From Prochlorococcus marinus str. MIT 9211 (GTDB taxonomy: Bacteria; Cyanobacteriota; Cyanobacteriia; PCC-6307; Cyanobiaceae), in assembly GCF_000018585.1 (NCBI RefSeq), contig NC_009976.1, forward strand, positions 429,982 through 493,981: a stretch of 64,000 nucleotides of DNA, given 5' to 3'. A program made the translations under genes and the position numbers. Of this stretch, positions 3,260 to 63,328 are shown piece after piece. The notes beneath the pieces were generated by a model, which made no database searches, was not told where the DNA came from, and was given only the letters and a program-made list of their open reading frames with translations. Position 1 is the first letter of the stretch. Each line of letters starts with the position of its first letter.

Positions 3260-4012
3260 TTAAGTTTGGCGAAAAAGATGTTTGTGATCAGGGCTATATA
3301 ACCTTGAACGTCTTTTATTGGGGTTTAATGCTGGGCTAATTATATAAAGAGTAGTTCTGAAAAGCCCTTTCTTTTTTGAGACGGATGCCATTTTTCTTAG
3401 AGGAACTATTGTTAGCCATTCGTCTTGCCAGCTAACCCTATAGCCAATTGCTACAGGGGTATCATCTGAATAGTACTTTAATAATGTTGCTTGAACTTTA
3501 TCTACATGTCTAGCACTCAGATAAAGGCAAAGCGTAGCTTTTAGGGATGCTAAATTCTCTAGTTTTTCATTCTCAGGTATAGCTGTTCTACCTTCTGTTC
3601 TACTAAGAACAATTGTTTGCACAACTCCAGGGATTGTAAGTTCTTTTTGTAATGCACAGGCTGTTGCTTGATAAGCACTTATCCCTGGGATTACTTCGAC
3701 TTCTATTCCGGCTTCAGCAAGGGAACATATCTGCTCTGAAATAGCACCAAAAAGGTTTGGATCACCATCATGTAGGCGGACAACTTTTTTCCCTTTTTTG
3801 GTTTCTTTTATAAGTAAAGGAATAATTTCTTCCAGGGTTAAAGAACTAGTTTTTATCTTCTGGCAGTTTTTTGGTGCAAGTGCTGCTATTTGAGGAGAGA
3901 TTAAAGAATCGGTCCATATTAAAATTTCTGCTTTTTGTATTCGATCTAATGCACGAACCGTAAGTAGATCTGGTGCTCCAGGCCCTGCACCAACTATTGA
4001 GAGCAGATTCAT
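3260..4012 (-). CDS. cobM: Precorrin-4 C11-methyltransferase
   Basis: A 250-residue SAM-dependent methyltransferase that methylates C11 of precorrin-4 in corrin ring synthesis. The tetrapyrrole methylase fold is clear: [16 protein letters not shown] at residues 6-21, [16 protein letters not shown] near 98, and [15 protein letters not shown] near 127. Length and motif spacing match CobM/CbiF. The ATG overlaps the TGA of lgt (ATGA, 4009-4012), indicating translational coupling although the functions are unrelated. Other corrinoid genes in the window, cobK (damaged) and cobO, are dispersed rather than clustered. Confidence 0.92.
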
Positions 4013-4920
4013 TGATGCTTTCTCCCTATAATGCCTAAACTAGGAAGCTTCTTTTTCCTTTGATATATCCAAAAAAGACCTAGTAACCCAAGGCCAAAAA
4101 GTATTGTGCTAATTAATTGAGCTATACGAATTCCTCCTATGCAAAAAGGTGGAACACCTCCAAGACAAAGTGGATCTGTCCGAAGCCCTTCTATCCAAAC
4201 TCTCCCTAGGCTGTAGATAATGGCATATACACAACTCAATGACCCAGAAGGCAGTTTAAGTTTCCCTTTGATGCTGAGCCTGATTAAAGAAATCAAACAA
4301 AGAAAAAGCAGAATATTCCAAATAGACTCGTATAGAAATGTAGGGTGAAAATAATTGTTGTCTAAAAAGAATTCAGGTCTATAAGGGTAAGGAATAAATA
4401 ATTTCCATGGAAGATCAGTTGGTAATCCAAAGGCTTCGTTGTTAAAAAAATTACCCCATCGACCAATAGCTTGACCTAATGCAACTGATGGAATAAGTAC
4501 ATCAAGAACATCCCAGAAATCTTCTTGCTTTAATCTGCAGAAAATTAAGATAGCAATTGTTCCTGCAAGTAAAGCACCATGAATAGCAATACCACCTTGC
4601 CAAACTTTAATAAAGGTAGGTATTGATATGGTTAATCCAAAAGCTTGTATAGAGCTCCAGAAATTAGACCCACTATAGTTTCTCCATTCAAAAATTACAT
4701 AATATGCTCTTGCTCCAATAATTGAAGAAATAACAAGTATTGGAAGTAAATCGTTTATTAGATTTTTTGATAACCCTTTTATTGAAGCAAGCTTATTTGA
4801 TAGATTTAGACCTATTAAAACGGCAAAAGCAATTAATAAGCCATACCACCTTAGAGTAAAGAAACCAACCTTTAATAGTTCTGGACCTGGGGACCTAAAG
4901 GTCGCAAAATAGGCTTCCAT
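4009..4920 (-). CDS. lgt: Prolipoprotein diacylglyceryl transferase
   Basis: A 303-residue inner-membrane enzyme that transfers diacylglycerol from phosphatidylglycerol to the lipobox cysteine of prolipoproteins. It has about seven hydrophobic segments. The family signature [14 protein letters not shown] is near residue 152, preceded by [12 protein letters not shown] near 110, which carries the conserved His-Gly. The ATG is at 4920 and the stop overlaps the start of cobM by 4 bases. petA begins to be transcribed further upstream on the same strand, and its stop lies 29 bases before this start, so petC-petA-lgt-cobM may share readthrough. Confidence 0.95.
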
Positions 4921-6462: not shown

Positions 6463-6560
6463 GCCTGATGTTCTAACAGTCCTTATTGATAACTATTATG
6501 TACTGCCATGGTCCAGTAGTGCTTTTTAAATACAGGGATCTCAATGATTTGATTTTTTAA

Positions 6561-33110: not shown

Positions 33111-33136
33111 GATGCGACACGAAAATATTTTTGAAT

Positions 33137-33724
33137 ATGGCCAATCTCGATCAGGCACCAAAAAGGCTAATGCCGAATCTATTGCACGTGTTGCCTGCAT
33201 TCGCTAATGAGAAGGAGTTAAGGCTTAACACAATTGTTGAACTTAACTCCAACACAATTAATAAATATGAGCTAATTACAGAGACAGGACATTTAAAGCT
33301 TGATCGAGTTGGATATTCTTCATTGTCTTACCCATTTGCATATGGTTGTATCCCTAGAACTTGGGATGAGGATGGAGATCCTTTAGATATAGAAATAGTT
33401 CAAGTTACTGAACCATTGATACCAGGTTCGATTGTTGAGGCTCGAATCATCGGAATAATGACTTTTGATGATGGAGGAGAAGTTGATGACAAAGTTATTG
33501 CAGTCATTGCAGATGATAAGCGCTTAGACCATATAAAAAGTTTTGAGCAGTTAGGTGAACATTGGCTCAAGGAGACAAAGTATTATTGGGAGCATTATAA
33601 AGATCTTAAAAAGCCTGGTACATGCAGAGTTAATGGGTTCTTTGGCGTCGAAAAAGCAATCGAAATTATTAAATCTTGTGAGACTCGTTATTTATCTCAA
33701 ATTGATCCAACCTTGGTTGATTAA
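33137..33724 (+). CDS. ppa: Inorganic pyrophosphatase, family I (copy with full active site)
   Basis: A 195-residue pyrophosphatase that hydrolyses PPi from biosynthesis. Counting from ATG 33137, the expected residues are present: Glu35, Lys43, Glu45, Arg57, Tyr residues in YPFAYG, Asp79/Asp81/Asp84 in WDEDGDPLD, Asp in FDDGGEVDDK, and YKDLKK near 156. A 25-residue N-terminal segment precedes the usual start. TTG 33131 is an alternative. A second, more typical cyanobacterial family I enzyme is encoded at 48983 and is discussed there. Confidence 0.93.
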   Translation: MANLDQAPKRLMPNLLHVLPAFANEKELRLNTIVELNSNTINKYELITETGHLKLDRVGYSSLSYPFAYGCIPRTWDEDGDPLDIEIVQVTEPLIPGSIVEARIIGIMTFDDGGEVDDKVIAVIADDKRLDHIKSFEQLGEHWLKETKYYWEHYKDLKKPGTCRVNGFFGVEKAIEIIKSCETRYLSQIDPTLVD

Positions 33725-41627: not shown

Positions 41628-42089
41628 TTAGAATGGGATCTCGTCTGTATCTGGGACTAGTGGGGAGCTGTCCCAATTAGCTAGCTCTGGGTTATTACCA
41701 GGTGAGGCAGAGGACTGAGTTCTTTGATTGTGTTGTTCAGGATTTGGAGTATTCGATTTTGTCCCTGCATTCGAATTATTAATGTTTTGGGACACATTAT
41801 GAAACCTGCTAAGGGTGAACTCTGCTTTTTTTTCCTTAGTCCCGTCTTGACGTGGAACTGTATTCATCCTTAATCGCCCTTCCAGAATAAGCTTTTGCCC
41901 AACTTGGATATTATTTTGAAGTTCTTGTGCCAGGTTCCCCCACCCAAGAACTTTTATAAACCCTTGCGGAGCGTCTGCACGTAGGCCCTCAAAACCAACT
42001 TCCATTTCTGCTATGGGAGTTTTATTGTCTTGGGTATATCGGATTGTCGGGGCTTGCTTTACAACAACTTCTAGTAAGCAGTGATTCAT
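41628..42089 (-). CDS. ssb: Single-stranded DNA-binding protein (SSB-like)
   Basis: A 153-residue OB-fold protein. The core (about 1-105) contains APTIRYTQDNKTPIAEMEVGFEG, GFIKVLGWGNLAQELQN and KLILEGRLRMNTV, and is followed by a Ser/Asn/Gln/Pro-rich linker. The C-terminus is PDTDEIPF, the acidic tip ending in Pro-Phe that recruits partner proteins. The core departs from E. coli SSB but matches the shorter cyanobacterial form. ATG 42089 is preferred to GTG 42104. It is divergent from the damaged cobK, whose start is 30 bases away. Confidence 0.85.
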   Translation of the reverse strand: MNHCLLEVVVKQAPTIRYTQDNKTPIAEMEVGFEGLRADAPQGFIKVLGWGNLAQELQNNIQVGQKLILEGRLRMNTVPRQDGTKEKKAEFTLSRFHNVSQNINNSNAGTKSNTPNPEQHNQRTQSSASPGNNPELANWDSSPLVPDTDEIPF

Positions 42090-42118
42090 TTCAATTTCAA
42101 GCACTGAGATTCATCTTG

Positions 42119-42921
42119 ATGCACAGTCGAAAAAATTGCCAGCGTCGTCTTTGGTTGTTAACCGGAACTGGAGAGGGACCGTCTCTTGCGAAAGCCTTTA
42201 TTGGTAAAGGGTGGCAAGTAAGTGTCAGTGTTGTCTCTTACGAAGCTTCTTTGTCATATTTTGGATTGGGTCTTGAATCTTTGTGGGTTGGCAAACTAGA
42301 AGGGGTTGAAGGTATTTCTGCTGTTTTAAAGAATGCGGATAAAGCTAGTAAGGGTTTTGATTGCATCATTGATGCAACGCATCCCTTCGCAGGTGTAATA
42401 AGCGCAAATCTCAAAATAGCGTCTTCAATCCATGGCCTTCGGCTTATTCGTTATGAACGTTTTTGTTGGAAATTTGTCTGAAGCAAAAATAGATAAAAAG
42501 TGTTGAAGATTTGTCTGGCTTCAACTTGGCAGGACAAAAACTTTTGTTGGCTATTGGATCTAAATATTTGTCTCAGGCTGTAATTGTTGTTCGCAATGCT
42601 GGTGCAATACCTTTTGCAAGGGTATTGCCTAGAGTTGCTAGCCTGACAAAATCTTTATCTTCTCAGTTGCCAGAAGATCACTTGGCGGTTGTTCAGCCAA
42701 GTGATGGCGTTAAGTTAGGCTTATTAGAAAAGGCTCTTTGCAGGAAATGGTCTATAGATGGAGTCTTATGTAGGCAATCTGGCGGGTTGACACAAGAAAT
42801 TTGGCAATCAATTTGCTCAAAAGAAAAAATAGACTTATGGATGATTGCTCGACCTTCTTCTCCTTCAGGGATAGAGATTGCAAATACTTTAGAAGCTTTA
42901 TTTAAATGCCTGGAGATTTAA
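42119..42921 (+). pseudogene. cobK: Precorrin-6A reductase, disrupted in the middle
   Basis: CobK reduces precorrin-6A with NADPH. The first part (from ATG 42119, MHSRKNCQRRLWLLTGTGEGP) contains CIIDATHPFAG and reads to LIRYERFCWKFV before TGA at 42479-42481. The second part resumes in another frame from about 42493 (IKSVEDLSGFNLAGQ) with LLLAIGSKYLSQAV and GVLCRQSGGLTQEIW and ends at 42921. The two frames do not overlap: the second is closed upstream by TAG 42490-42492. A third frame bridges them (LSEAKIDKK, 42474-42500). So at least two changes are needed to restore one reading frame. Both halves are otherwise well preserved. Confidence 0.82.
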
Positions 42922-42956
42922 TATATTTATACCTCATTAATTTTTCTTGCTTATTT

Positions 42957-43292
42957 ATGCCCGAACCTTTGCAAAGTAATCAGTTCATTTTAGTGGTTAC
43001 AACCGAGAAGGACATTGCAAAAGCAAAGTCTATGGCAAGGAGCTTATTAAATAAGAAATTTGCAGCTTGTATAAGTTTCAAAGAGGTCAGATCTATTTAT
43101 TGGTGGGAAAACTCTTTAGAAGAAAGTAATGAAGTCCAGCTTCAAATTAAAACTTCTAAGGATAAGTTTAATCTTCTTTTAAAGGAGGTTAAATCTTTGC
43201 ACTCTTATGACTTACCTGAAATTATCTCTTGGAGTGCTTCTTGCGATAAGGAATATGCTAATTGGCTTAATCAATCTCTTTTGGATTATTAA
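42957..43292 (+). CDS. cutA: Divalent-cation tolerance protein CutA
   Basis: A 111-residue trimeric ferredoxin-like protein; the role in copper tolerance is historical and the function in cyanobacteria is unclear. Family parts are LVVTTEKDIAKAKSMARSLL, FAACISFKEVRSIYWWEN and LQIKTSKDKF, with LPEIISW near the end. ATG 42957 (MPEPLQ) gives the normal length; the frame is open to ATG 42906, which would overlap cobK. The 3' end overlaps the converging PfkB kinase by 26 bases. Confidence 0.9.
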   Translation: MPEPLQSNQFILVVTTEKDIAKAKSMARSLLNKKFAACISFKEVRSIYWWENSLEESNEVQLQIKTSKDKFNLLLKEVKSLHSYDLPEIISWSASCDKEYANWLNQSLLDY

Positions 43293-48747: not shown

Positions 48748-49041
48748 ATGGATTCAGAATCAACTTCAGTCAGACACTCCTATCAGACGGAATCTTCACC
48801 CCTTGCAAATGCAGGAGATCTTACTGAGGTAGATGATGATGACCCCTATAGTTGGAATGGAACTTCAAATGCTTTATTCGGCTTGGCGATTGCAATAGTT
48901 TCGATTGGAGTTCCACTTTCAGTAGTAGTAATTGATCAACCTTCTGCAAATGATGAAACCATCCCAACTGCTTTAGAGCCTTATGGATCTAAGCCCTATC
49001 CCTCCTTCTCCATCAAAAGGTTTAGTAAACCTGGTAGTTGA
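48748..49041 (+). CDS. Small single-pass membrane protein
   Basis: A 97-residue protein. An N-terminal acidic part (SPLANAGDLTEVDDDDPYSWNGTSN) leads into one hydrophobic helix (about 42-63, ALFGLAIAIVSIGVPLSVVV) and a polar tail of about 35 residues. The family was not recognised. Its last 59 bases overlap the start of the second pyrophosphatase in another frame, so the two are probably translated from one transcript. Confidence 0.6.
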   Translation: MDSESTSVRHSYQTESSPLANAGDLTEVDDDDPYSWNGTSNALFGLAIAIVSIGVPLSVVVIDQPSANDETIPTALEPYGSKPYPSFSIKRFSKPGS

Positions 49042-49510
49042 AATACCTGCTGGAAGTAGGAATAAATATGAGTACTTTTCAGAAGCTGGTGTAATGGCTC
49101 TGGATAGGGTTTTGCATTCATCGGTACGGTACCCCTTTGATTATGGATTTATTCCCAACACACTTGCAGAGGATGGTGCTCCATTAGATGCAATGGTCAT
49201 TATGGAAGAACCTACATTTGCAGGATGTTTAATTCAGGCAAGACCTATTGGAGTACTTGATATGCATGATTCAGGTGCATATGATGGAAAACTATTGTGC
49301 ATTCCAACGGCAGATCCTCGTCAGAAAGATATTAATAGTATTCGACAAATTGCTCCCAACCAACTTGAAGATGTTGCTGAATTTTTTAGAACATATAAGA
49401 GCTTGGAGGGTAGAGTTGTTTTGATAGATGGTTGGAGGGATTTTGATGCAGTAGATGACTTACTTCAAACTTGTATAGAAGCTAAGAATAACGCAGAATC
49501 TAATAATTAG
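48983..49510 (+). CDS. ppa: Inorganic pyrophosphatase, family I, second copy
   Basis: A 175-residue protein close to the standard cyanobacterial pyrophosphatase. Most active-site residues are in place: Glu20, Lys28, Glu30, Arg42, Tyr50, Tyr54, Asp64, Asp69, Asp96, Asp101, Lys103 and the YK pair near 145. The metal ligand equivalent to E. coli Asp67 is Ala66 (sequence EDGAPLD instead of the usual DGDPxD). The first copy at 33137 keeps that Asp. The start MDLSPIP matches homologues exactly, so the 59-base overlap with the preceding gene is probably real. Confidence 0.92.
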   Translation: MDLSPIPPSPSKGLVNLVVEIPAGSRNKYEYFSEAGVMALDRVLHSSVRYPFDYGFIPNTLAEDGAPLDAMVIMEEPTFAGCLIQARPIGVLDMHDSGAYDGKLLCIPTADPRQKDINSIRQIAPNQLEDVAEFFRTYKSLEGRVVLIDGWRDFDAVDDLLQTCIEAKNNAESNN

Positions 49511-62474: not shown

Positions 62475-62639
62475 ATGGCAAGACTTACTATCTCTGCCAT
62501 TGAAAGGAGTACTAAGGATCATGCTTGCTGGAAAGAGCCTTCTATTCACAAGGCAATACTTGTAAGCGGATTGTCAGTGTTGATAGCTTCTATAAAACTT
62601 CTAGAAAAAGATTTAACTGCTCTTGATGACTCTGTTTAG
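62475..62639 (+). CDS. Very small protein, unknown function
   Basis: A 54-residue frame from ATG 62475 (MARLTISAIERSTKDHACWK) ending LLEKDLTALDDSV, with a possible amphipathic or weakly hydrophobic helix (AILVSGLSVLIASIKLL). It is divergent from pyrH, and its last codons overlap the cobO stop by 4 bases. A TTG at 62445 could extend it by 10 residues. I do not recognise it; the composition is protein-like but short. Confidence 0.4.
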   Translation: MARLTISAIERSTKDHACWKEPSIHKAILVSGLSVLIASIKLLEKDLTALDDSV

Positions 62640-63328
62640 AACTCAATGCCTTTCTGAGCTTTAATTCCTTGTTCTTTGAAGGGATGATGCAATAGACTCA
62701 TCTCGGTAACTAAGTCTGCATTGCTAATTAATTCTTGGTGTGCATTCCTGCCAGTCAAAACAACGTGAGTTAACAATGGCCTTTCTTTTAGTCCATCTAA
62801 AACTCTATTCAAAGATATATATCCCAATTTTATTGCGATATTGATTTCATCAAGAATTACAAGTTTATATTCTTTATTCTTTAAATATATTAGTGCTGTT
62901 TCCCAAGCTTTTGAGACAAGTTCTTTATCTCTACTTCTATCTTGAGTCTCCCAGGTGAAACCTTCCCCAAGAGCATGCCATTTTAATAAGTCTCCAAAAA
63001 TTCTTAATGCTTTTGCTTCTCCAGGTTCCCAACCACCTTTGATGAATTGAACAATAGCTACTCGCTCATTATGACCTAGTGTTCTGATCGCCATCCCTAA
63101 AGCAGCAGTGGTCTTTCCTTTCCCATGACCTGTAAAAACAATAACCAAACCTTTTTCTAAACTCCTTTTCTGAACTCTTTTGCCTTGTACTTCTTTTCGC
63201 TTCTTCATTTTATTCTTGTATAGATCTTCTTTAATATCGGGCTCAAGAAAACCTCCCATACCTATCTCAATGGACTTTTTATCAAGATCCTTCAGTATAT
63301 TTTCTTTGTTATTTTGATTGCTAATCAT
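62636..63328 (-). CDS. cobO: Cob(I)yrinic acid a,c-diamide adenosyltransferase
   Basis: A 230-residue ATP:corrinoid adenosyltransferase. The P-loop is IVFTGHGKGKTTAALGMAIR near residue 63, followed by VAIVQFIKGGWEPGEAKAL, YKLVILDEINIAIKLGY and HVVLTGRNAHQEL, all standard CobO/CobA positions. About 55 N-terminal residues are Lys/Glu/Asn-rich and precede the conserved core. It completes the corrinoid set in this window with cobM and the damaged cobK. ATG 63328 is used. Confidence 0.94.
   Translation of the reverse strand: MISNQNNKENILKDLDKKSIEIGMGGFLEPDIKEDLYKNKMKKRKEVQGKRVQKRSLEKGLVIVFTGHGKGKTTAALGMAIRTLGHNERVAIVQFIKGGWEPGEAKALRIFGDLLKWHALGEGFTWETQDRSRDKELVSKAWETALIYLKNKEYKLVILDEINIAIKLGYISLNRVLDGLKERPLLTHVVLTGRNAHQELISNADLVTEMSLLHHPFKEQGIKAQKGIEF

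Follow-up and report, generated by a model that had tools for sequence, protein, structure and literature searches.

The cobK locus

The window analyzed here comprises 64,000 nucleotides (bases 429,982-493,981) of Prochlorococcus MIT9211, a member of clade LLII/III (CP000878; PMC4421930; PMC6102989), whose genome is deposited as one closed contig of 1,688,963 bases. At 42119-42921 on the plus strand lies the cobK locus, which in the deposited sequence consists of two halves in different frames, both matching the CbiJ/CobK family (Pfam: PF02571). The 5' half (42119..42481), corresponding to the coenzyme-binding N-terminal domain, runs from the ATG at 42119 through LIRYERFCWKFV to a premature TGA at 42479-42481; it covers positions 1-102 of the family profile with 68.4 bits and shares 67-69% protein identity with the intact same-genus genes. 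The 3' half (42493..42921), corresponding to the substrate-binding C-terminal domain, lies in a frame that opens after the TAG at 42490-42492 and ends with a stop at 42919-42921; it covers profile positions 115-230 with 55.8 bits, and its identity to the same-genus genes is 54-57%. The sole early in-frame start of this half is a TTG at 42511. Each half alone exceeds the curated cut-off of the profile (28.6 bits), and together they span the profile in order. A bridge between them, LSEAKIDKK, is encoded in the third frame (42474-42500).

Two stops, at 42479 and 42490, interrupt what would be a single continuous frame over both Rossmann-like domains. Since the first frame ends at 42481, ahead of the opening of the second at 42493, no single indel joins the two halves; a sequence-only reading of this DNA had come to the same conclusion, and its coordinates and frames for cobK were confirmed when the sequence was re-read. 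A search of the whole genome for another gene of the family, which that reading had proposed, yielded no second copy of cobK.

Both neighbors of the gene are intact: on the minus strand a divergent gene (41628..42104), whose product we take to be a single-stranded DNA-binding protein, and on the plus strand cutA (42906..43292; Pfam: PF03091, 100.3 bits). The two are also the neighbors of cobK in the same-genus genome G002, where their order is identical and with which the entire window is collinear. Just 5' of the cobK start codon (42110-42121), the residues I-L are invariant in 12 relatives; this conserved stretch may represent a start or ribosome-binding region shared with the divergent neighbor.

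Two shifts at the junction

Every way of skipping two bases at the junction was scored against a profile of eleven relatives. The best model consists of two separate +1 shifts, with a net change of +2 bases. According to the junction alignment and the double-shift scan, the first shift falls within 42460..42476 (best score at 42466-42467) and the second within 42485..42499 (best score at 42491-42493), both on the plus strand; the two are about 25 bases apart, and both extra bases lie within about 35 bp. The bridge read between them (42474..42500, plus strand) matches the interdomain linker of the relatives. With 47.5, the double-shift reading scores like the intact same-genus genes (45.2 and 48.4), whereas shuffled junctions reach a mean of only 18.2 (SD 7.6), and none out of 300 attains 47.5. 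The earlier suggestion that the bridge fits a normal CobK linker is thus borne out. A contiguous +2 model – one 2-base event together with a nonsense change – scores 29.6 with the stop counted, and it still requires two lesions, so that the claim of at least two disabling lesions holds as well.

The A-runs named as slippery sites in the sequence-only reading do not coincide with the best-scoring second shift. The site of this shift is located only to within about 15 bases, and its best score (42491-42493) lies beside those runs and not clearly inside them. A hairpin was considered as a cause of a sequencing artefact or as a stimulus of recoding, and was rejected, the folding being unremarkable (z = -1.50 for DNA, z = -1.79 for RNA). 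Furthermore, a 9-bp direct repeat, ATTTGTCTG, occurs at 42472-42480 and 42509-42517; its first copy overlaps the region of the first lesion, and its second copy lies just past the second lesion. As a seed of template switching, this repeat was set aside, because repeats at least as long are found in 15 of the 703 91-bp segments of the window and because the first copy is explained by orthologous codons.

Homologs and selective constraint

A CobK match is present in 56 out of 60 relatives, and none of the 56 contains an internal stop. In both genomes of the same genus, G001 and G002, cobK is a single frame; their genes share 59-62% protein identity with that of the window outside the junction, while the junction of the window is two bases longer than theirs. 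A comparison of the junction in close relatives had been called for by the sequence-only reading; it shows uninterrupted genes, and the split form is not shared. With respect to the family as a whole, which includes the CobK of Rhodobacter capsulatus (PDB: 4x7g, 5c4n, 5c4r), the gene of the window covers the profile in order and keeps the conserved residues, but it differs in that the deposited gene lacks a single open frame. The intact CobK of G002 matches the solved CobK structure.

Outside the junction, the codons carry the signature of a constrained gene. Of the usable columns that are invariant in 12 relatives, cobK of the window retains 43 out of 44, compared with 43/47 and 43/44 in the intact same-genus genes. 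Its mean identity to outgroup sequences is 48.4%, and that of the intact genes 46.6% and 47.4%. Relative to G002, the two halves have dN values of 0.22 and 0.34, while those between the two intact genes are 0.25 and 0.43; at synonymous sites (dS), these comparisons are at or near saturation. Hence, neither amino-acid divergence nor dN is raised in the remaining codons, as would be expected under relaxed selection. Decay over anything beyond a very short time appears disfavored by these values, and the reading of the locus as a case of recent decay fits poorly: since constraint is intact outside the junction, a loss of cobK, if there was one, would be too recent to have left further traces.

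Corrinoid synthesis and requirement

Besides cobK, six genes of corrin synthesis were checked (cobI, cobJ, cbiD, cobH, cobM and cobO), and all were found uninterrupted. Two of them lie in the window: cobM (3260..4012, minus strand; TIGR01465, 293.6 bits) and cobO, a cobA-type adenosyltransferase (62636..63328, minus strand; TIGR00708, 226.1 bits), both above the cut-offs of their profiles. The completeness of cobM and cobO, which had been stated from the sequence, is therefore confirmed, and the broader statement that the rest of the corrinoid pathway looks intact is justified for the six genes tested.

In this genome, metH is present and metE absent, and a ribonucleotide reductase of class II, which depends on B12, is encoded as well. 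Because of this combination, B12 looks indispensable to the cell as judged from its gene content. No corrinoid importer could be recognized in searches of the genome for the plug domain of TonB receptors and for FecCD: the plug domain gave no match, and the only FecCD candidate turned out to be a permease of the ABC-3 family (219.8 bits versus 34.8 bits for FecCD).

Sequence quality in the rest of the genome

We surveyed frameshifts in sampled stretches covering about 600 kb of the genome against about 660 kb of G002, resulting in 571 conserved genes and 439 kb of aligned sequence. Besides cobK, one frameshifted gene was detected among the 571, which we take to be ndhL from the appearance of its protein (positions 3927-4178 of stretch L070; genome 537,908-538,159). 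Close to a T8 run near the end of this gene, the sequence holds one extra base, which may be an error or a real mutation, so that the final ~25 residues seen in G002 are exchanged for others. Extra-base shifts thus number three in two genes, two of the three within about 35 bp, and the deposited sequence is generally good. Other apparent splits were dismissed. Those near 6500 and 12640 are run-ons into adjoining sequence, the DUF3067 and DUF1643 proteins being essentially complete there, and one in another sampled stretch (L067) runs antisense to a conserved gene on the minus strand. No DNA identical to that of the strain was found in a search of viral contigs.

Interpretation of the broken reading frame

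Among the four readings offered for cobK from the sequence, a sequence or assembly problem with two errors fits best; older decay, recoding and split subunits do not fare as well. We estimate a probability of about 60% that the break is a local error introducing two extra bases. The cell's own cobK is then predicted to be an ordinary, intact gene for precorrin-6A reductase, and the two bases at the interdomain linker would stem from a local fault in base calling or assembly, presumably where the data of an old genome project gave little support. We infer the error from several observations taken together. The gene is fully constrained outside the junction, its double-shift reading restores a linker equal to intact ones, and the relatives are unbroken; B12 is apparently needed, with six intact corrin genes, two B12-requiring enzymes and no recognized importer. 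Two lesions so close together are unlikely to be independent when just one other gene is frameshifted among 571 (439 kb of alignment), and point to a single faulty stretch of sequence; and ndhL, too, carries an extra base though the gene would be expected to be retained. Against an error stand the overall quality of the sequence, the rest of the window and some 600 kb being nearly free of frameshifts, and the position of the extra bases, which are not clearly within long homopolymers. Moreover, the same sequence would be seen if a null allele had recently arisen in culture.

A comparable pattern is known from the GeneTack survey (PMC3711429), in singleton genes of finished genomes that carry a frameshift. 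These are likewise confined to one genome, have intact homologs and resume reading in another frame; the difference is that they contain one shift, while cobK of the window contains two.

A null allele, real and very recent – cobK perhaps lost in culture, or the allele a population variant – is the main rival, and in our judgement an unlikely one. The lesions do stand in a deposited closed genome, and unrelaxed constraint is also compatible with a loss only generations old. Streamlined Prochlorococcus lives among vitamin-producing neighbors, and the setting could perhaps have been culture over years in the company of corrinoid-supplying heterotrophs. What is more difficult to reconcile with this scenario is the presence of two insertions in a gene without excess substitutions: under neutral drift, substitutions should build up faster than a second indel. 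The apparent need for corrinoid in a cell lacking a recognizable importer, and the intact genes of both same-genus genomes, also weigh against it.

Two readings, by contrast, would leave the deposited sequence as it is and the gene active; that a cell in need of corrinoid makes functional CobK from two overlapping, out-of-frame pieces, whether by double slippage or as two subunits, strikes us as highly improbable. In the first case, two +1 events of ribosome or transcript slippage would join the frames and produce some full-length CobK. The bridge frame does code for a good linker, AAA-A permits re-pairing, and cobK is conserved as though functional. But both shifts, some 25 nt from each other, would need to occur efficiently, the A-runs comprise just 5 A, the downstream RNA structure is not unusually stable (z = -1.79), and the arrangement occurs in none of the 56 matching relatives (of 60), so that a frame change conserved among relatives, as expected of programmed frameshifting, is not observed. 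Recoding at A-rich slippery runs is therefore unsupported and has, in our view, very little chance of being correct. Even harder to credit are two separate subunits, the second translated after re-initiation beyond the first stop: the break does sit in the linker that connects the coenzyme-binding domain with the substrate-binding one, but the only early start of the 3' half is the TTG at 42511, no split relative exists among the 56, and the C-terminal chain would have to complete the N-terminal domain, because the two domains of CobK exchange their last strands (PMC4663756).

Most likely, then, the break in cobK is not new biology, whether it is a sequence error or a very recent mutation in culture. 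If the lesions were real, the strain would be a corrinoid auxotroph, which is unexpected in cyanobacteria with predicted corrinoid production; it would still carry metH and a B12-dependent ribonucleotide reductase with no known importer, and the case would bear on the question of which phototrophs of the ocean synthesize pseudocobalamin. In the more likely event that the lesions are errors, the consequence is only a correction, and annotation pipelines would wrongly call the strain cobK-less.

Elsewhere in the window, the proteins encoded at 33131-33724 and 48983-49510 are distantly related, being ~32% identical over 170 residues. The latter resembles what we take to be an inorganic pyrophosphatase; the former is either a diverged relative of it or a match through a shared fold.
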